DNA from: a virus
Strand: one strand, 5' to 3'
Length of the DNA stretch: 64,000 nucleotides
Virus record (IMG/VR): IMGVR_UViG_3300017987_000009
Location: 1 to 64,000 of that record
Shown: positions 2 to 37,114 of the stretch, piece by piece
Layout: each line of letters starts with the position of its first letter
Position numbering within the stretch: position 1 is the first letter of the stretch
Position numbers and translations under genes: made by a program
The notes under the pieces: generated by a model
Database searches by the model: none
Seen by the model: only the letters and a program-made list of their open reading frames with translations
What the model was told of the DNA's origin: nothing

Positions 2-3000
2 GGCGAGCCGAAGGAGGGCGGCGACCCGATGCACCCGCCGATGAAGGACTTGCCGACCAACGTCAAGAACGCGATCAAGAAGGGGAAGCCCGGCGACGGG
101 CTGGCGAACCACGTGCCCGCTGCCGGGCACTACGCGGCGTGGCTCGCGGCCGACAAGCCGTCGAGGACCGTCCTGACCGGGCGGCACCTCGTCCACCCGA
201 GCGGGAAGCGGTGGATCACCGCGCGCGAGGCCGCGCGGATCCAGGAGATCCCCGACGACTACAAGTTCGCGGTCGGCGAGCCCGGGGCGTGGAAGCTGCT
301 TGGCGACTGCGTGCCCGTTAGCCTGGGCACTGCGGTGTCGAAGAGGCTGCTGTCGTTCGTGTCCAAGGCGGTCGAGCCCCAGGTCGACGCGGCCGAGCTC
401 GCCGCCGGCCTCGAGGAGCTGGAGAAGGGGCTGTGGACCTGCGACGACATGGCGAAGGCCGACCCCGGTCTGCAGGGCCAGGCGCGTCGCGCCGAGCGGT
501 CGGACAAGCTGACGGTCGGCGAGTTCTTCCACATGCCTAAGCCGACGCGGCCGGCGCGGCCGGAGGAACTGCAGACGGTCGAGAACCTGCTCTCGCTGTA
601 CAGGGAGCGCGCGGAGAAGTGGCTGCCGACCTTCGTGCAGAAGAAGTACGACGGCGCCAACCACCAGGCGCACGTCGACGGCGACGACGTCAAGATCTTC
701 TCCGAGGACGGCGACGACAACACCGACCGCCTGCCGGGGATCGTCGAGGCGCTGAAGGCGCTCAAGCCCGACAAGCTGGTCGTGCCGATGGAGATCGAGG
801 CCTGGGCCGGGTCGCAGCACCTCCCGCGCGAGGCCGTCGCCGGCTATCTCAACTCGAAGGACGAGCCGGACGACTCGCACCTGGTCGCGAACATCTACGA
901 CGTCATGTGGGACGGCGACGCCGGCGACATCCACAAGTCGCCTACCGAGGAGAGGCTCGAGCGCCTGGCGGAGCTCGGCGTCCCGCAGAGCACGATGGGC
1001 GCGCCCAGCCTCAAGCACCGGCTGAACGCCGCGCCGAGCGTGAAGGCCGACGACCTCGAGGAGCTCGAGCGCGCGACCCGCAGGATCCGCAAGCTGCCCG
1101 GCTCCGAAGGCGTGGTGTGCAAGCACGCCGACGCGCCGTACCCGCTCGCGGAGACGACACCGGACTCGTGGGTCAAGTACCACAACGCGACGACGATCAA
1201 CGCGGTCGTAGTCGACCGCGAGAAGACGGCGGGAGGCGCATGGGTCTACCACTACGCCGTGAGGCCCGGGAAGGACGACCCGGCCGAGACTGTCGAGGTC
1301 AATGGCGAGAAGCTCGTGCCCGTCGGCCTGACGTTCGCGACCTCGCTCGACATCGGCGACGGCGACGGCATCTTGGTCGAGGCGGAGACCGTGAACCTGG
1401 AGCGGTCGCCAGACGGCGCGAAGCTGTCGGCTTGGGTGCCGCGCGCGATCTCCGAGCACGGCCGCGAGCCGGACACCGTCGACGCGGTCGCGTCGCGCGC
1501 ACGGAAGAACCTCGTCCTGCAGGAGAAGGACGTCGACGACGAAGGGAACGTCGAGTACCGCCCGACGCGAAAGGCGGAGAAGCAGCAGGACCCCTACCTC
1601 GAGGTGCCGCCCGACGAGGACCGGTACAGGTTCTCGGTCCAGCACCACTGGCGCGGCCGGAGCGTTCATGCGGACGTGCGTGTCGAGCTCAAGCCGCGGA
1701 AGCTGCTGATCGGCTGGACGATGAACACGCAGATCAAGGGCGCGGTGAAGGAGCCGGTCACCACGCTGGCGGAGGCGAAGCGGTGGTCGTCGGCGCAGAA
1801 CATCGACAAGGTCTCGAAGGTCGACTGGCGCACCGGCGAGTGGGCGTCGCGCCCGAAGGCCGGCACCGACAAGCTGGTCCGCGCGGAGATCCTGTCCGAG
1901 CGGAAGGCGCCCGAGCCGTGGGCGTGGCTCGACGTCGAGGGCAAGACGAAGGACCCCGAGCCCGGCAAGGCGCCGCCCGTCGGCGGGACGCGCCAGTTCC
2001 CGGGCGTGTTCGACCAGGTCGACGAGGGTTGGGTGGAGTTCGGCGCGCAGAAGCCGTGGTTCCACGAGTACTTCTTCCACGGCGGCGGGCTGAACTACCG
2101 GATGTTCTTCCGGCAGCTGCGGCTGTCGAAGTCGGAGGGGGCGGAGGTGTGCGAGGCGTGCGGGAAGGCCGCGGCTGCGCTGGTCGCGTGGGAGGACGCG
2201 CAGCCCACCGCCCTCTGCCGCGCCTGCGTGGACAGCGCGCTCGAGAAGGCCGACGTCGTCTTGCCGCCGAGCGAGGAGCAGTCGATGCCAGAGGGCGCGG
2301 CGTGGCTCGCGATCTACCCGGACGACCAGCAGCCGTACGTGCTGGACACGGACGCGGTCAAGAAGAAGTGGATGCCGCCCGACGGGCGCTCCGCCATGCC
2401 GAAGGCGGTCCGCTCGCAGGTCCCGGCCGAGCACCGGTTCTGGAAGAAGCGCGGTGAGGCGGCGCGGTCCGCGCGCGACGCGCTGGTAGAGGCGCTGCGA
2501 AAGAAGGAGGTCGAGCTCGACTACTCCGCGCCGTACAAGACGGCGAAAGCGTCGATGCTCGACGCGGACTTTGTCCTGCAGGAGCAGACCTGGAAGGGGC
2601 AGACCCAGGTCCGCGTCGGCCCGACCAGGACGAAGTGGTGGCTGCGCCTCGACGTCGGCCGGCCTGAGCTCGTGGTCGTGGAGCTCGAGCGAAACCCGCT
2701 CGACAACGAGGAGGTCGCCGCGCGGGTCGGCCGCGACCGGCACAAGAGCTCGATGAGCCTCGCCGGCGACGTCCCGCCTGGGCACTACCTCAACCCGACG
2801 AAGGAGACGCCGTCGAACGTCGAGCCGCTCGACCACGGGAAGGCGGAGGTGCTTGACCTGTCCGCCGACCTGCTGAAGGTCAAGCTCAAGGGCAAGCGGC
2901 TGAAAGGGCTGTTCACCGCGTCACGCAACGACGGCGAATGGCTGTGGGCCAGGCCGCAGGCCGCGCCAGGCACCGAGGACGCGGAGAAGCGCGTCGAGTT

Positions 3001-3445
3001 CGAGCTGACCATCCCGGTACACCACGTCGAGATCAAGAAGGCGAGGGACGGGAGGGAGAAGCGCCTGGTCACCGGGGTCGTGCTCGAGCCCGACGAGGTC
3101 GACGCGCAGGAGGACTGGGAGCGCGAGGAGACGATCGAGCGCGCGGCGCACGGTTTCCTCAAGGATTACAACAAGCCGGCGTCGGATGACGGCACCCAGC
3201 TTGGCCTGATGCACAGGGCGTTCGGCGACATCGGCCTCGAGCTAGTCGAGTCGTACGTCGCGCCGGCGGACCTCCAGCTGGGCGGGAAGTCGAAGGACAA
3301 GAAGGTCAAAAGAGGCAGCTGGGTGATGACAGTCCACGTCGTCGATGATACAAGGTGGAAAGAGGTCAAGGCCGGCAAGCTAACCGGATTCAGCGTAGGA
3401 GGCGTCGCGACGGTCGCGGGCAAGCGGAACGATGGGCAACAGTAA
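2..3445 (+). CDS. Polyprotein: C5-MTase end, ATP-dependent DNA ligase, LigD-type phosphoesterase, XkdF prohead protease (5' partial)
   Basis: The frame is open to the left edge, so the N-terminus is missing; residue numbers count from the first ATG at 29. Residues ~25-110 match motifs IX-X of C5-cytosine methyltransferases (TAREAARIQEIPDDYKF, then LGDCVPVSLG). The catalytic motifs would lie off the window. Residues ~200-385 are an ATP-dependent DNA ligase: motif I KYDG with Lys206, a YDVMWDGD motif, EGVVCK at 360-365 and WVKYH. From ~530 there is a LigD-type 3'-phosphoesterase start (FSVQHHW, then VHADVRVEL keeping H-x-D). A CEAC...CRAC zinc-finger-like insertion follows near 707-735, and a phosphoesterase-like end (KLKGKRLKGLF) near 960. 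Residues ~990-1138 are XkdF-like (PF14550 type): GVVLEPDEVDAQ, ERAAHGFL, ELVESYVAPADL and GFSVGG. The next genes are scaffold and capsid, which supports a head-protease role. The domain combination is unusual; ligase activity is inferred from motifs only. Confidence 0.85.
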   Translation, partial: GEPKEGGDPMHPPMKDLPTNVKNAIKKGKPGDGLANHVPAAGHYAAWLAADKPSRTVLTGRHLVHPSGKRWITAREAARIQEIPDDYKFAVGEPGAWKLLGDCVPVSLGTAVSKRLLSFVSKAVEPQVDAAELAAGLEELEKGLWTCDDMAKADPGLQGQARRAERSDKLTVGEFFHMPKPTRPARPEELQTVENLLSLYRERAEKWLPTFVQKKYDGANHQAHVDGDDVKIFSEDGDDNTDRLPGIVEALKALKPDKLVVPMEIEAWAGSQHLPREAVAGYLNSKDEPDDSHLVANIYDVMWDGDAGDIHKSPTEERLERLAELGVPQSTMGAPSLKHRLNAAPSVKADDLEELERATRRIRKLPGSEGVVCKHADAPYPLAETTPDSWVKYHNATTINAVVVDREKTAGGAWVYHYAVRPGKDDPAETVEVNGEKLVPVGLTFATSLDIGDGDGILVEAETVNLERSPDGAKLSAWVPRAISEHGREPDTVDAVASRARKNLVLQEKDVDDEGNVEYRPTRKAEKQQDPYLEVPPDEDRYRFSVQHHWRGRSVHADVRVELKPRKLLIGWTMNTQIKGAVKEPVTTLAEAKRWSSAQNIDKVSKVDWRTGEWASRPKAGTDKLVRAEILSERKAPEPWAWLDVEGKTKDPEPGKAPPVGGTRQFPGVFDQVDEGWVEFGAQKPWFHEYFFHGGGLNYRMFFRQLRLSKSEGAEVCEACGKAAAALVAWEDAQPTALCRACVDSALEKADVVLPPSEEQSMPEGAAWLAIYPDDQQPYVLDTDAVKKKWMPPDGRSAMPKAVRSQVPAEHRFWKKRGEAARSARDALVEALRKKEVELDYSAPYKTAKASMLDADFVLQEQTWKGQTQVRVGPTRTKWWLRLDVGRPELVVVELERNPLDNEEVAARVGRDRHKSSMSLAGDVPPGHYLNPTKETPSNVEPLDHGKAEVLDLSADLLKVKLKGKRLKGLFTASRNDGEWLWARPQAAPGTEDAEKRVEFELTIPVHHVEIKKARDGREKRLVTGVVLEPDEVDAQEDWEREETIERAAHGFLKDYNKPASDDGTQLGLMHRAFGDIGLELVESYVAPADLQLGGKSKDKKVKRGSWVMTVHVVDDTRWKEVKAGKLTGFSVGGVATVAGKRNDGQQ

Positions 3446-4415
3446 CGGCAAACCTGGAGACCTTGACAAGCAGGACGCCCGCGAGATACTAGATCTACGG
3501 GTCAGAGAGGTGTCCCTCGTAGACCGGCCGGCGATCCGGCGCAGTTTCCTGGTTGTAAAACGACAAGAGGAGGATGAGATGGGAGCTTTCCAGGGTGACA
3601 CGGGCAGCGGTGCCGAGGTCGACGAGGTCATCGAGAAGATGGACTGGCACGACATCGACGTCGAGAAGGCGCTGCCGGCCGATCTGGCCAGCGCGATCAA
3701 GGAGGCGGTGGCTTTCATGAAGAAGGCCGCGGGCGAGGAGGGGGCTCCCGCCGACGCGCTCAAGCGCGTGGCCGCGTTCCTCTCGAAGGTCGCGGGCGGC
3801 AAGTACCCGTACCCGAAGCCGGCCGGCAAGACCGACGGCGACGGCGACGGCGACGGCAAGACCGGCGACGGCGACACCTCCAAGCAGGAGAAGTGCCCGG
3901 AGTGCGGCGCGCAGATGAAGGACGGCGTCTGCCCCGAGTGCGGCTACAAGGCCAAGGCCAAGACCCAGAAGTCCGAGGGCCTGACCGTGACCGTCTTGCC
4001 GGACGGCCAGGTGCAGGTGAGCGGCGAGCCGGTCGAGAAGGGCGGCAAGCAGTTCACCGCCGAGCGCATCGCGGGTGTCGGCGCCATCGCGAAGCAGGCG
4101 ATGTCGCTGCTCGCGGAGACCGACCCCGATACGGCGAAGGCGATCATCGCCGAGCTGGTCAAGGCCACGCTGCCGGCCGACCTGAAGTGGACGCAGGGCA
4201 CGCACGCGGTCCCGGCCTCCGTCAAGAAGGAGGACATCGAGGCGGCGGTGAAGGCGGCGGTCGAGCCCATCACGAAGAAGGTCGACGACATCGGCAACAA
4301 GGTCGAGGACATCACCAAGACGCGCGGGGAGCCGAAGTCCGGTGACGGCGACGACGCCGCCGACCAGGAGCCCACGCAGAAGAGCGAGAACTTCTGGAAG
4401 GACTTGCCCCTCTAG
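3432..4415 (+). CDS. Scaffold-like capsid assembly protein
   Basis: This 327-residue protein overlaps the protease gene by 14 nt and precedes the capsid gene, the usual scaffold position. Residues 24-44 (REVSLVDRPAIRRSFLVVK) look like the segment that normally ends XkdF-family proteases, so the protease module seems split between two genes. The middle is acidic and low in complexity (repeated DGDGDG), followed by a zinc ribbon CPECG-x6-CPECG. The C-terminal third has charged heptad-like helices (VKKEDIEAAVKAAVEPITKK), as expected of a scaffold. It ends in NFWKDLPL, a peptide shared with two other morphogenesis proteins here. An internal ATG at 3579 has a better ribosome binding site than the first start. 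Scaffold function is inferred from position and composition. Confidence 0.6.
   Translation: MGNSNGKPGDLDKQDAREILDLRVREVSLVDRPAIRRSFLVVKRQEEDEMGAFQGDTGSGAEVDEVIEKMDWHDIDVEKALPADLASAIKEAVAFMKKAAGEEGAPADALKRVAAFLSKVAGGKYPYPKPAGKTDGDGDGDGKTGDGDTSKQEKCPECGAQMKDGVCPECGYKAKAKTQKSEGLTVTVLPDGQVQVSGEPVEKGGKQFTAERIAGVGAIAKQAMSLLAETDPDTAKAIIAELVKATLPADLKWTQGTHAVPASVKKEDIEAAVKAAVEPITKKVDDIGNKVEDITKTRGEPKSGDGDDAADQEPTQKSENFWKDLPL
3565..3581 (+). promoter_or_regulatory. Internal ribosome binding site and start within the scaffold-like gene
   Basis: AAGAGGAGGA lies about 5 nt before an in-frame ATG at 3579. It would make a 278-residue product without the XkdF-like first 49 residues. The upstream start at 3432 lacks an equally strong Shine-Dalgarno sequence. 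Nested scaffold starts are known in other phages (lambda C/Nu3), which makes dual products plausible. Confidence 0.45.
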
Positions 4416-4474: not shown

Positions 4475-5668
4475 ATGACAAACGAGGAGTTGATCCAGAA
4501 GGCGATCACCGTCGCGGAGGCGCTGGTCACGCAGGGGAAGCTCAACCCGGCCCAGGCCGACAAGTTCATCGACTACGTCATCGACGAGTCCGTGATGCAG
4601 AACAACGTCCGGGTCGCGCGGTTCCGGAACGAAGAGTTGCACATCGACAAGATCGGCATCGGCAAGCGCGTGATGCACCCGGCGGTCGAGTACCAGGCCC
4701 CGGAGCGGCGCCTCGGCGTGTCGACCTCGCAGGTCAAGCTGAGCCCCCAGGAGGTCATCACCGCGTTCGACATCGGGGACAGCTTCAAGGAGCTGAACCT
4801 CGAGGGCGAGTCGGTGCAGGACCGGATCATCCGCATGTTCGCCACCGGCTGGCGGAACGACGCGGAGCTCCTGGAGCTGAACGGGGACACGGTCGGCCAG
4901 GCGTCGCTCGAGGGCGACGTCTGGGACGGCGGGTCGACCACGCAGTACATCAAGGACGACCTGCTCTCGATGTTCGACGGCTGGCTGCGGCTGTCAGACG
5001 GGGCCCACCTCGTCGACGTCCAGGGCGCCAACATCGGGCTGTCCGTCTTCGGGCAGATGATCCGGGCCATGCCTCAGAAGTTCCGGAGGAACAAGAAGGA
5101 GCTGCGGTTCTTCATGAGCTCCGACCTGGCGCAGATCTACATCGAGAAGATCGCGACCCGCATGACCGACAAGGGCGACAAGGCGGCCGAGGGCGAGACC
5201 CAGACGCCGTTCGGCATCCCCATCGTCGAGGTCCCGCTGATGGACCACCAGCCGACCGTCGTGGAGAGCGTCACGCTGGACGACGTGACCCCGGTCTCGC
5301 TCCGGTACGCGCCGGTGTCGAACGTCGTGGTCCTGCCCGACGCCCTCGACAAGACGCCCACCACGCCGTACCCGAACAACCTGACGGGCGGCGCGATCGT
5401 GAACGAGGCGGCGGGCACGCTCCTGTCGTTCGACAGCGGCAGCGGCCTCGACGGCGTCACCGTCAAGGTGACGTACTCCGCGCAGCCCATGCTCATGCTG
5501 ACGCACTGGCAGAACTTCATCATCGGCATCGGTCGCGACATCCGCATCGAGAAGCAGCGGAACATCCACAAGCGCGCCGACGAGTACGTCGTGACCGGCA
5601 AGCTCTCCGTGCAGATGGAGGAGCTGGACGCCGTCGTCAAGGCCTACAACGTCGGGCTCGGGGTCTAG
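4475..5668 (+). CDS. Major capsid protein
   Basis: This 397-residue protein has a strong ribosome binding site (AAGGAGGAGAGG) before ATG 4475. Its place directly after the protease and scaffold genes is that of a HK97-fold major capsid protein. Supporting features are a helical N-terminus, a long central domain with FRRNKKELRFFMSSDLAQIY, the typical FGIPIVEVPLM stretch, and a C-terminal β-rich part ending in IGIGRDIRIEKQRN and EYVVTGKLSVQMEELDAVVK. The last pattern is common in myovirus and XkdG-like capsid proteins. There is no obvious long N-terminal delta domain, consistent with the separate scaffold gene. A stem-loop follows the stop. Assignment rests on synteny plus sequence pattern. Confidence 0.85.
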   Translation: MTNEELIQKAITVAEALVTQGKLNPAQADKFIDYVIDESVMQNNVRVARFRNEELHIDKIGIGKRVMHPAVEYQAPERRLGVSTSQVKLSPQEVITAFDIGDSFKELNLEGESVQDRIIRMFATGWRNDAELLELNGDTVGQASLEGDVWDGGSTTQYIKDDLLSMFDGWLRLSDGAHLVDVQGANIGLSVFGQMIRAMPQKFRRNKKELRFFMSSDLAQIYIEKIATRMTDKGDKAAEGETQTPFGIPIVEVPLMDHQPTVVESVTLDDVTPVSLRYAPVSNVVVLPDALDKTPTTPYPNNLTGGAIVNEAAGTLLSFDSGSGLDGVTVKVTYSAQPMLMLTHWQNFIIGIGRDIRIEKQRNIHKRADEYVVTGKLSVQMEELDAVVKAYNVGLGV

Positions 5669-34648: not shown

Positions 34649-37114
34649 ATGGCGACGCTGACAGTAGACAACAGGCACGCGTACGTGGAGGGCGCCCCGC
34701 TCCACGCGCAGCGCGCGATCGCGCGCGAGACCAGCTACCTGCAGGCCGGGTACAAGCACACCGCCGGGTTCAAGACGAAGCGGTGGGACGGCAAGCGGAA
34801 GCTGGCGTCGATGCTGAAGGACGGGCGAATCAAGGTCCCGGCCGGGCTGGCGCAGGCGGTGGCCGACACGCTGTGCGACGAGGGCGTGCCCGTGCGGACG
34901 GTCGACGAGCGCCGCCGCCAGGAGCGCAGCGTGGCCTACGGCTGGGACCCGGGGTGCTCGCTGCGCCCGTACCAGGAGCGGGCGGTCGCGCTCGCGACGA
35001 CGCCGCGCGGCACGCTCGGCCTGGTCGGCCGCGGGATCCTGAAGCTGCCGCCGCGCAGTGGCAAGACGCTGGTCACCGCCGCCATCGTCCGCGAGCTGGG
35101 CGCCCGCGCGCTGTTCATCGTCCCGTCAAAGTACCTGCTGCACCAGGCGAGGGCCGCCATCGGCGACGCGCTCCAGGCCGAGGTGGGGCAGGCGGGCGAC
35201 GGCGAGTGGGAGCCGCGCGACGTGACGGTCGCGACGGTACAGACGCTGTGCAGCCGGCGCGGGAAGAACACCAAGAGGGAGCCGGCCGCGCCGGAGTACA
35301 CCGAGCTGCTCGCTCGCTCCGACCTGGTCGTGTTCGACGAGTGCTTCCCGGCGGGGACCATAGTCGGCGACAAGCGAATCGAAAAGATCCGAATCGGGGA
35401 CGAAGTCCCGTCCTTCGACGAAGGTAGCCGACGAGCAGTGAGCGGGCGGGTCGTACGCCTGTTCAAGAAGCGGTGCGTCGAGTTGGTCAGGGTTCGTTTT
35501 ATCTGCGGGAGGTCGCTGGTCTGCACTCCTAACCACCCCTTGTACTCGTCGCGCGGGTGGGTCCGCGCCGACAGCTTGACTGAAGGATCGGAGGTGCTGC
35601 GTGTCGATGACAACGATGGCGTGCACCGGCTGCGGACAGCCGGTGATCAAGACCAGAAAGAGACCGACCGCCTATTGCGAAGCGTGCCAGGCGGCGCGGC
35701 GATTGGCCCGGCGAAAGAAGGTCCAAACCGAGTGCGCCTGGTGCGGGGCGCAGATCCAGTTGAGCGGGCGCCTCGGTCTGCAAGCGGCGAATCGGGGACG
35801 GGGGTACTGCTCGAAACAGTGCAAAAAGAAGTGGATGAAGCGGCGCTGGTCGGAAACGATGGCGGCGACGAACCGGAAGCACGCGTCAGCTCGGATGAAG
35901 AAGAACAACCCGTCAAGGAGACCGGATGTGCGAGCGAAGATATCGCGAACGCTGCGACTCATCGGACACCGTCCGCCGTGGACCGGCGGCAAGGGGCGAG
36001 GGACGACACGACCGCAGCGAGCGCTTCTAGCGGCGCTAACGAGAATCCAAGACGGGTGGACGGCCGAGCTGCCGATCGGCGTCAGAGGAGTCTCGGGGCT
36101 ACCGAGGTGCGTCTACGTGGACCTGGCGCACGAGGCGAGCAAGACGGCGGTGGAGGTGGACGGCGGAAGCCACTGCACGCTCAAAGCTCAAGCGTCGGAC
36201 CGGAAAAAGGAGCGGTTCTTAGCTGGTCGCGGGTGGACCGTGTTGAGGTTCTCGAACCGGGAAGTGACGGAAGGTTTGGAGGCGTGTGTCCGGACGGTCA
36301 CGTCTACAACCTCGAAGTCGACCGGTTCCACACGTACACGGCCGACGGCTTCGTAGTCCACAACTGCCACCACCTCTCGTCCGACGAGTGGCGCAAGGTC
36401 GTGCGCGAGAGCGACGCGCCGTACAAGATCGGGCTGAGCGCGACCGCGTTCGTCGACCGCGAGGAGGAGGCGGAGCTTGGCGTGATCTGGCTGCGCGCCT
36501 GCACGGGCGAGGTCCTGGTCGACCTGTCGTGCAGCGACCTGATCAGGCAGGGCTACCTCGTCCGCCCGGAGATCCGCGTCCACGCGATCCGCGAGCCCGA
36601 CCTCCGGCGGCGCGGCTGGAGCACGAAGCTGCACCGCGACGCGATCTACAGGAACGAGCACCGCAACCGGAAGATCGCCGAGCTCGCGTGCGGGCACGCG
36701 GCCGCCGGCCGGCGGACCGTCGTCGTCACCAGCAGGCTCGAGCAGGTCGGCGCCATCACGCGCTTGCTTGGACAGACGCGTGTCCGCTTTGCGCGCGTGG
36801 TCGGGCAGACGCCTCAGTCGACACGCGACCGACAGGTCTCGCGCCTGCGGCGCGGCGAGCTCGACGCGCTCGTCGGCACTGTGCTGGACGAGGGCGTCGA
36901 CATCCCCGAGGTCGACGCGGTGGTCAACGCCGAGGGCGGCGCCGACGACAAGACCACGTACCAGCGCCTGCGCTGCCTGACGCCGCACCCAGGCAAGGCG
37001 CGCGCGTACGTCGACGACTTCGTCGACCTGACGCACCCGTACTTCGCGGCGCACTCGCTCAAGCGGCTGGCCGTGTACCGGTCCGAGCCCGAGTTCCGCG
37101 TCGCGGTCCGCTGA
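34649..37114 (+). CDS. SF2 DNA helicase (UvsW-like) interrupted by an intein
   Basis: The precursor is 821 residues; removing the intein (residues 232-572) leaves a 480-residue helicase. Motifs: SLRPYQERAV, Walker A PPRSGKT (~133-139), motif II split by the intein (VVFDE|C...N|CHHLSSDEW), motif III-like IGLSAT, and C-terminal helicase motifs (DEGVDIPEVDAVVNAEGG, then YQRLRCLTPHPGKARAYVDD). An N-terminal region of ~85 residues resembles the UvsW DNA-binding part. In T4-like phages UvsW resolves branched DNA and R-loops and switches origin- to recombination-dependent replication. Activity requires splicing because the insertion sits inside the DECH box. No Shine-Dalgarno precedes the ATG. Confidence 0.85.
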   Translation: MATLTVDNRHAYVEGAPLHAQRAIARETSYLQAGYKHTAGFKTKRWDGKRKLASMLKDGRIKVPAGLAQAVADTLCDEGVPVRTVDERRRQERSVAYGWDPGCSLRPYQERAVALATTPRGTLGLVGRGILKLPPRSGKTLVTAAIVRELGARALFIVPSKYLLHQARAAIGDALQAEVGQAGDGEWEPRDVTVATVQTLCSRRGKNTKREPAAPEYTELLARSDLVVFDECFPAGTIVGDKRIEKIRIGDEVPSFDEGSRRAVSGRVVRLFKKRCVELVRVRFICGRSLVCTPNHPLYSSRGWVRADSLTEGSEVLRVDDNDGVHRLRTAGDQDQKETDRLLRSVPGGAAIGPAKEGPNRVRLVRGADPVERAPRSASGESGTGVLLETVQKEVDEAALVGNDGGDEPEARVSSDEEEQPVKETGCASEDIANAATHRTPSAVDRRQGARDDTTAASASSGANENPRRVDGRAADRRQRSLGATEVRLRGPGARGEQDGGGGGRRKPLHAQSSSVGPEKGAVLSWSRVDRVEVLEPGSDGRFGGVCPDGHVYNLEVDRFHTYTADGFVVHNCHHLSSDEWRKVVRESDAPYKIGLSATAFVDREEEAELGVIWLRACTGEVLVDLSCSDLIRQGYLVRPEIRVHAIREPDLRRRGWSTKLHRDAIYRNEHRNRKIAELACGHAAAGRRTVVVTSRLEQVGAITRLLGQTRVRFARVVGQTPQSTRDRQVSRLRRGELDALVGTVLDEGVDIPEVDAVVNAEGGADDKTTYQRLRCLTPHPGKARAYVDDFVDLTHPYFAAHSLKRLAVYRSEPEFRVAVR
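35342..36364 (+). mobile_element. Intein in the helicase DECH box
   Basis: The intein is 341 residues. Its first residue is Cys232 (CFPAGTIVG, block A, then RIEKIRIGDEVPSF). Block B has T293-x-x-H296 in SLVCTPNHPLYSS, followed by GWVRADSLTEGSEVL. The end is HVYNLEVDRFHTYTADGFVV-H-N (blocks F/G), and the next extein residue is Cys. All nucleophiles needed for self-splicing are present. The central ~200 residues have no endonuclease motif in this frame and look like shadow sequence, because a homing endonuclease gene overlaps them in another frame (35601-36356). It may move by homing into intein-free helicase alleles. Confidence 0.85.
35601..36356 (+). CDS. Vsr-like homing endonuclease nested out of frame inside the intein
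   Basis: GTG 35601 is preceded by GGAGG six bases upstream and gives 251 residues in the +1 frame relative to the helicase. Order of parts: two zinc knuckles (ACTGCGQP...YCEAC and CAWCGAQI...YCSKQCKKKW), a NUMOD3-like DNA-binding segment (ARMKKNNPSRRPDVRAKISR), then a Vsr/PD-(D/E)XK-type nuclease: CVYVDLAHEASKTAVEVDGG, SH, DRKKERFLAGRGWTVLRFSN and EV. The last ~20 residues are only the other-frame reading of intein block F. Similar endonucleases occur as free-standing genes in phages. Here the nuclease shares its DNA with the intein linker, so both frames must stay open. Confidence 0.85.
   Translation: MSMTTMACTGCGQPVIKTRKRPTAYCEACQAARRLARRKKVQTECAWCGAQIQLSGRLGLQAANRGRGYCSKQCKKKWMKRRWSETMAATNRKHASARMKKNNPSRRPDVRAKISRTLRLIGHRPPWTGGKGRGTTRPQRALLAALTRIQDGWTAELPIGVRGVSGLPRCVYVDLAHEASKTAVEVDGGSHCTLKAQASDRKKERFLAGRGWTVLRFSNREVTEGLEACVRTVTSTTSKSTGSTRTRPTAS

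Follow-up and report, generated by a model that had tools for sequence, protein, structure and literature searches.

The window analysed here comprises bases 1-64,000 of the 91,588-bp virus contig IMGVR_UViG_3300017987_000009 and opens within a gene that fuses DNA enzymes to a prohead protease. The open frame at 2..3445 (+) is the 3' portion of this 1,341-codon gene, which is read through the circular joint of the contig. The domains of the 1,341-amino-acid (aa) chain are, in order, a C5-cytosine methyltransferase, an ATP-dependent DNA ligase, tandem LigD-type 3'-phosphoesterases with a zinc ribbon between them, and XkdF. We propose, with a probability of about 0.55, that the gene encodes a late polyvalent protein of the head locus whose enzymes are predicted to be head cargo.

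The contig is circular, its final 123 bp being identical to its initial 123 bp. The gene starts at contig position 90,885, spans the joint and ends at window base 3,445, so that window base 2 corresponds to residue 195. Portal and MuF genes precede the fusion, and scaffold and capsid genes follow it. An earlier note, made from the letters of the window, had described a single frame joining all parts, located away from the replication block and just before scaffold and capsid. Both points were confirmed: the same frame extends across the joint to 1,341 aa, and the replication genes lie at about 41-57 kb. Its domain calls were likewise all right as judged by Pfam, profile matches to the PDB and AlphaFold/Foldseek. 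Relatives were found by scanning viral contigs and are cited by contig (L numbers); all fused relatives are metagenomic.

Pfam DNA_methylase (PF00145) matched aa 4-310 of one chain with 140 bits (E 1.5e-40), which corresponds to a complete C5-cytosine methyltransferase. The chain holds the motifs DVFCGIGG, PCEPFS, ENV, QARKR and motif X. Where the earlier note had looked to PCQ and ENV motifs upstream, ENV is present, while PCQ reads PCE, as it also does in the relative L035. The ligase was matched by Pfam DNA_ligase_A_M over aa 404-587 (E 6.7e-17) and by DNA ligases of the PDB (E 1e-19). Its catalytic Lys409 (644-646) is located in KYDG, further motifs are EIE, SEGVVCK and VKYHN, and an OB-fold-like part, assigned from sequence reading alone, ends with a motif-VI-like WVPRAI. 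These five motifs align in the relatives and are nearly invariant among 22 sequences. A profile search of the contig yielded the fusion as the sole match to the ligase model. In L008 a 354-aa LAGLIDADG intein (L008:6148-7209) follows directly after the KKYDG adenylation motif of the ligase in a DpdA-like-ligase-phosphoesterase-XkdF fusion.

The region between ligase and protease had no match among the models of Pfam, NCBIfam or PHROGs. Because family models do not detect it, the phosphoesterase was identified by alignment of relatives and by structure. H743, H750, D752 and R754 of domain 1 were invariant in 19/19 aligned sequences, the alignment of this region comprising 19 relatives. We take these residues to be the active-site pattern of LigD phosphoesterases as in PaLigD, with a spacing that is one residue longer here; for the later His/Tyr pair of LigD no placement was found. 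Modelled alone, domain 1 had a predicted local distance difference test score (pLDDT) of 90, and its six best PDB matches were all phosphoesterases of LigD or non-homologous end joining (NHEJ; best E 5.7e-3, probability 1.00). The AlphaFold model of aa 721-1341 had a mean pLDDT of 77 and gave 3p4h, 3p43 and 3n9d as the top three in Foldseek (E 4.9e-6 to 7.3e-5). The profile of domain 2 matched LigD-type phosphoesterases exclusively in the PDB (3p43 with E 2e-7, 3p4h with 1.7e-4, then 3n9b, 2lj6 and 5dmp). The LigD-type phosphoesterase with a zinc insertion that had been read from the sequence thus stands, refined to two copies with the ribbon between them and the second copy non-catalytic here. 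Several relatives are without the ribbon. In the unfused L026:4173-9419 and L028:3414-9446, ligase, metallo-beta-lactamase-fold, ASCH-like, D12 methyltransferase and phosphoesterase domains occur together, and the second phosphoesterase copy of both retains the HxD motif which the copy of the window lost.

The protease was identified by Pfam Peptidase_S78_2 (XkdF, PF14550), which matched aa 1207-1331 with 90.1 bits against a cut-off of 24 (E 1.5e-25). The serine of TGFS(V/I)GG aligned in all members compared, and the His region did so with small gaps in distant ones. In Foldseek the aa 721-1341 model also matched the T4 head protease gp21 (5jbl; probability 0.93-0.96), and Foldseek matches in BFVD included XkdF proteins. 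Some phage proteins of BFVD that contain XkdF bear the annotation of zeta-toxin-domain proteins, so the range of XkdF-attached cargo may be wider than the present enzyme set. Two candidates for additional fusions were rejected. Genes of Pseudomonas and Rhizobium phages named 'DNA methyltransferase' encode XkdF alone (149-212 aa) rather than methyltransferase-protease fusions, and the XkdF gene of Lactococcus encodes the protease with a C-terminal scaffold-like part rather than an enzyme fusion. PHROG 1530, named DNA methyltransferase, matches the former genes solely by its C-terminal, XkdF-bearing part. The annotation as DNA methyltransferase is a propagated error, seen in L010, L011 and L053 (PaP1 gp048, RHph_Y1_11 EVC30_149 and KIL1_0052). 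Proteome papers on PAK_P1-like phages name neither a methyltransferase nor a protease for the XkdF gene.

Ligase, both phosphoesterases and XkdF share one frame in 13 contigs (the window, L007, L008, L015-L018, L020, L022, L025 and L035-L037), or in 11 after collapsing the near-identical pairs L016/L017 and L035/L036. Same-frame homologues in independent contigs had 51-66% aa identity, and L035/L036 contain the full order of C5-methyltransferase, ligase, phosphoesterase and XkdF within one contig with no joint involved. For L022 and L037 (88% aa identity) the ratio of nonsynonymous to synonymous substitution rates (dN/dS) was 0.04-0.08 in the nucleotidyltransferase, D12, ligase, both phosphoesterase and XkdF domains; purifying selection acts on every domain of this pair. 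Because homologues occur in the same frame in independent contigs and dN/dS is that low, chance or artefact was excluded as the origin of the fusion. Among 50,697 phage records the ligase-phosphoesterase-XkdF fusion was found in none.

The position upstream of the ligase is an exchangeable slot. It is occupied by a C5-methyltransferase in the phage of the window and L035, by D12 N6-adenine methyltransferases in L015 (two), L018, L019, L022 and L037, by a TGT/DpdA-like transglycosylase in L008, L016, L020, L021 and L025, and by a 2H phosphoesterase in L007. The TGT/DpdA-like assignment was made by PHROG 887 for L008, L016, L020 and L025 (E 4e-15 to 7e-8) and by our own profile for L021. L008 has a radical-SAM QueE-like gene and a FolE-type GTP cyclohydrolase near its TGT-like domain; PADLOC returned nothing on the TGT-like domains. 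The 7-deazaguanines that DpdA proteins introduce into phage DNA protect it (PMC6884629). With three unrelated DNA-modification chemistries in one slot we argue for a shared task on DNA, and the swapping is in keeping with one role common to these enzymes, to modify and seal the DNA of the phage itself. Motifs point to putative ASCH-like and Pol-beta-like nucleotidyltransferase domains among the relatives, the copy of the window being without a Pfam match. In some phages they are part of the chain, in others they have their own gene directly ahead of it, which is the case in the phage of the window. There the gene at contig ~88640-90279 (L004:12640-14280) encodes ASCH-like, helical and nucleotidyltransferase-like (GGLANxGxTxGDxDIL) domains, and the N-terminal half of the L007 fusion (1,766 aa) is a homologue of its product.

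The gene order of portal, MuF, enzymes, protease, scaffold and capsid was found in every contig reaching far enough. In the distant relatives L023, L027, L043 and L051, where XkdF is unfused, the gene after the enzyme gene reads as a standalone prohead protease, a reading based on NHD/NHE- and SIGG-like motifs seen by eye rather than on a profile. From separate adjacent protease genes and the constant order it follows that the fusion probably joined two neighbouring head-locus genes. It also follows from these distant relatives that fusion of the protease is not necessary for the arrangement. The enzyme cassette is thus a part of the head locus whether the protease is fused or not. The unfused L043:6378-11282 combines a PNK3P-like 3'-phosphatase with ligase, 2H and phosphoesterase domains, a complete set for healing and sealing of ends, and the presence of this polynucleotide-kinase 3'-phosphatase-like domain beside the ligase supports end healing as a theme. 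L050 and L051, contigs from metagenome-assembled genomes of Planctomycetota, have head loci with phosphoesterase-D12 methyltransferase proteins, which may hint at the hosts of the wider family.

A candidate cleavage motif of the XkdF protease, PHI-x-K|A/S/G, in which PHI is V, L, I, A, M or T and the cut would be after Lys, was picked by eye from the window, L006, L007, L008 and L018 and tested on seven other scaffolds. These held-out scaffolds of XkdF phages contained 59 sites versus 17.8 ± 3.9 after shuffling, a 3.3-fold enrichment that was reached by 0/600 shuffles. Replacement of Lys in the motif by Arg (5 vs 6.6), Glu (6 vs 17.6) or Asp (13 vs 10.3) abolished the enrichment, which also required the hydrophobic P3. 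Unrelated XkdF-phage scaffolds were enriched as well, i.e. those of ul36-like phages (12 vs 1.9) and KIL1 (8 vs 2.2), PaP1 gp049 (6 vs 1.7) and a Rhizobium scaffold (7 vs 2.8). No clear enrichment was seen in six open reading frames (ORFs) adjoining XkdF-less enzyme cassettes (1-4 vs 1.2-2.6), where the highest ratio, that of the L027 ORF (3 vs 1.2), was reached by 48/400 shuffles. The same held beside S78-type proteases and for the three capsid proteins and one portal tested.

In the fusion itself candidate sites are located at aa 314, 334 and 344 in the methyltransferase-ligase linker, at 902 and 941 around the zinc ribbon, at 1041 and, at the start of XkdF, at 1205; three further sites lie within the methyltransferase domain. 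The linkers of fused proteins together contained 30 sites versus 8.9 ± 2.8 after shuffling. The motif in the linkers is a testable prediction of candidate cleavage, not proof of it. Indirect support for release of the domains by the protease comes from this candidate motif together with the linker before XkdF, which is of low confidence in the model.

Because a prohead protease acts inside the prohead, because the DarB protein of phage P1 is packaged and because Iyer et al. (2017) made a corresponding proposal (both discussed below), co-encapsidation of the enzymes is a sound inference. The XkdF part would bring the whole chain into the prohead, where the protease would digest the scaffold and cut the fusion between its domains, probably after Lys at PHI-x-K|A/S/G. 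The freed enzymes would remain with the packaged DNA and, in the head or after ejection, would clean 3' ends, seal nicks and ends and methylate the phage DNA. The benefit would be survival against restriction and damage. We regard this full scheme of injection and action as tentative. We hold the broader reading just as loosely: the head-maturation protease may be the vehicle by which an exchangeable kit of DNA enzymes, a modification enzyme with an end-healing and end-sealing module, is loaded. The kit would be freed in the prohead and might act on the genome either inside the capsid or as it enters the cell, like a Ku-free end-joining system and epigenetic protection delivered with the DNA.

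Several observations weigh against packaging and action of the enzymes. The standalone XkdF product of PaP1, gp048, was not among the virion proteins found for that phage (PMC3652863), and therefore the protease may exit the head or be destroyed, together with any part still joined to it. Ku (PF02735) had no match on the contig. The TGT-ligase-phosphoesterase-XkdF protein of L025 (L025:6471-9266) has lost the catalytic lysine (KRHDG) and has a shortened second phosphoesterase, so ligase activity was not kept in every member. As to the cleavage motif, reading by eye of five phages from this same set had first drawn attention to it, and unfused linkers showed a weaker Lys enrichment (20 vs 12.1 ± 3.4). 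Arg at P1 was likewise raised in the fused linkers (17 vs 6.5), and because of this we gave the linker enrichment less weight.

The strongest alternative, to which we assign a somewhat smaller chance than to the loading-vehicle scheme, is that the enzymes are ordinary late cytosolic proteins: the fusion would merely be two neighbours joined, the protease would free itself early, and the DNA would be methylated and ligated before packaging. The separate neighbouring enzyme and protease genes of several distant relatives are in line with this, late co-expression predicts the identical gene order, and the sole ligase match of the contig may have to serve replication and repair. Yet about 11 lineages keep the fusion with the same C-terminal order, though one stop codon would split the parts. 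Moreover, the cassette has portal/MuF on one side and capsid on the other, away from the replication genes, and a protease active inside the prohead would bring attached parts along. We favor head cargo over a purely cytosolic role.

It is rather improbable that the enzyme domains are structural or DNA-binding ballast of the prohead, i.e. a scaffold-like filler with little or no catalysis that is degraded at maturation. The loss of catalytic residues from the second phosphoesterase copy, the altered ligase of L025 and the absence of PaP1 XkdF from the mature virion would agree with such a role, but the invariant catalytic residues of domain 1 (19 sequences) and the nearly invariant ligase motifs (22) do not, and independent swaps have placed active-looking modification enzymes in the slot. 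Finally, joining of separate genes by a sequencing frameshift or misassembly, a danger raised in the earlier note, was refuted: the joint of the circular contig does fall within the gene, but the C5-methyltransferase match (aa 4-310) crosses it at aa 195, and independent contigs carry the same fusion, all four parts in L035/L036 and ligase-phosphoesterase-XkdF in many others.

The features of the fusion gene and the two genes following it are compiled in the table. Elsewhere on the contig, positions 84184-87930 (L004:8185-11931) encode a head protein of the MuF type (1,248 aa) that has a long extension at its C terminus and matches HipA_C weakly (E 3.8e-4); it may be a further polyvalent protein of the head. 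An MT-A70 methyltransferase has a gene of its own at 78609-79193 (L004:2610-3194; Pfam E 3.5e-19), and a helicase (ResIII/Helicase_C) at window 34649-37114 has an apparent intein or HINT-type insertion (Pfam PT-HINT, Intein_splicing).

Table. Coordinates of the fusion gene parts and adjoining head genes (window positions unless marked as contig).
Feature	Position	Strand	Details
Methyltransferase N-terminal part	contig 90,885-91,465		before circular joint; aa 1-194; motifs I, IV PCEPFS, VI ENV, VIII
C5-cytosine methyltransferase C-terminal part	2..349	+	aa 195-310 of 1,341; includes motif X (LGDCVPVSLGTAVSKRL)
Methyltransferase-ligase linker	350..502	+	candidate protease sites VSK|A aa 314-317, LEK|G 334-337, MAK|A 344-347; motif inferred
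ATP-dependent DNA ligase	503..1558	+	adenylation domain (Pfam 629-1180) and OB-fold-like part
LigD-type 3'-phosphoesterase domain 1	1580..2125	+	aa 721-902; H743, H750, D752, R754
Zinc-ribbon insertion CxxC...CxxC	2150..2227	+	C911, C914, C933, C936; lineage-specific
Conserved helical segment and LigD-type phosphoesterase-like domain 2	2294..2953	+	catalytic His/Asp lost here
Low-confidence linker before protease	2957..3001	+	pLDDT about 31
XkdF (Peptidase_S78_2) prohead protease	3038..3412	+	GLMH (His1265), TGFSVGG (Ser1325); T4 gp21-like fold
Scaffold-like protein	3432..4415	+	start overlaps fusion end; six candidate PHI-x-K|A/S/G sites
Major capsid protein	4475..5668	+	PHROG 1623, virion structural protein

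Should the enzymes be packaged, the particle itself would supply sealing, repair and modification of the incoming genome. Three unrelated modification chemistries in one slot form a comparison set made by nature, in which the requirements of genome entry can be tested, and the proposed cleavage motif of XkdF would make head processing predictable in many uncharacterised phages. A description of the ligase/phosphoesterase content together with swapping of modification enzymes was not found in the literature searched, subscription papers and supplements being beyond its scope.

Among known systems close to the fusion, AJP62006 of the archaeal virus ANMV-1 is homologous to it (27.7% identity, covering 72% of the query) through copies of nucleotidyltransferase, ligase and phosphoesterase and is, unlike the fusion, without XkdF and without a methyltransferase. 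ANMV-1 alone among the 50,697 phage records has the nucleotidyltransferase-ligase-phosphoesterase part. Bacterial LigD/NHEJ ligases resemble the fusion in having an ATP-dependent ligase and a 3'-phosphoesterase on one chain. However, the order in the fusion is ligase-phosphoesterase-phosphoesterase, no polymerase (POL) domain is among its Pfam matches, and the LigD_N model PF13298 had no match on the contig, which sets it outside LigD (NHEJ); instead of POL its relatives have a nucleotidyltransferase domain and, in one case, a PNK3P-like phosphatase. Standalone XkdF proteases of Lactococcus ul36-like phages, PaP1, psiM2 and ICP1 belong to the same family and occupy the same place in the head operon but have no attached enzyme in the records inspected.

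The general form of the packaging and processing idea put forward in the earlier note is already found in Iyer et al. 2017 (PMC5512222), whose polyvalent proteins have an assemblin-like peptidase at the C terminus and were suggested to undergo processing in the virion. Like the fusion, these are head-locus proteins with many disparate enzyme domains and a C-terminal protease, and processing at virion assembly and delivery with the DNA were proposed for them as here. The fusion is itself polyvalent in that sense, since its single chain combines several dissimilar domains and its gene lies among those for virion proteins. In the main text of that paper, as opposed to its supplement, ligase mentions refer to RNA ligases (2H section) only, and DNA ligase, LigD phosphoesterase, C5-methyltransferase and TGT/DpdA in combination with XkdF were not found. 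The methyltransferase-helicase DarB of phage P1 is a packaged head protein that is believed to enter the cell and to protect DNA from restriction (PMC9024508). It differs from the fusion by its SWI2/SNF2 helicase, by an N-terminal capsid-targeting signal and by having neither a fused protease nor a ligase. Both contain a DNA methyltransferase, and the packaging of DarB in the head demonstrates that a large methyltransferase can be head cargo.

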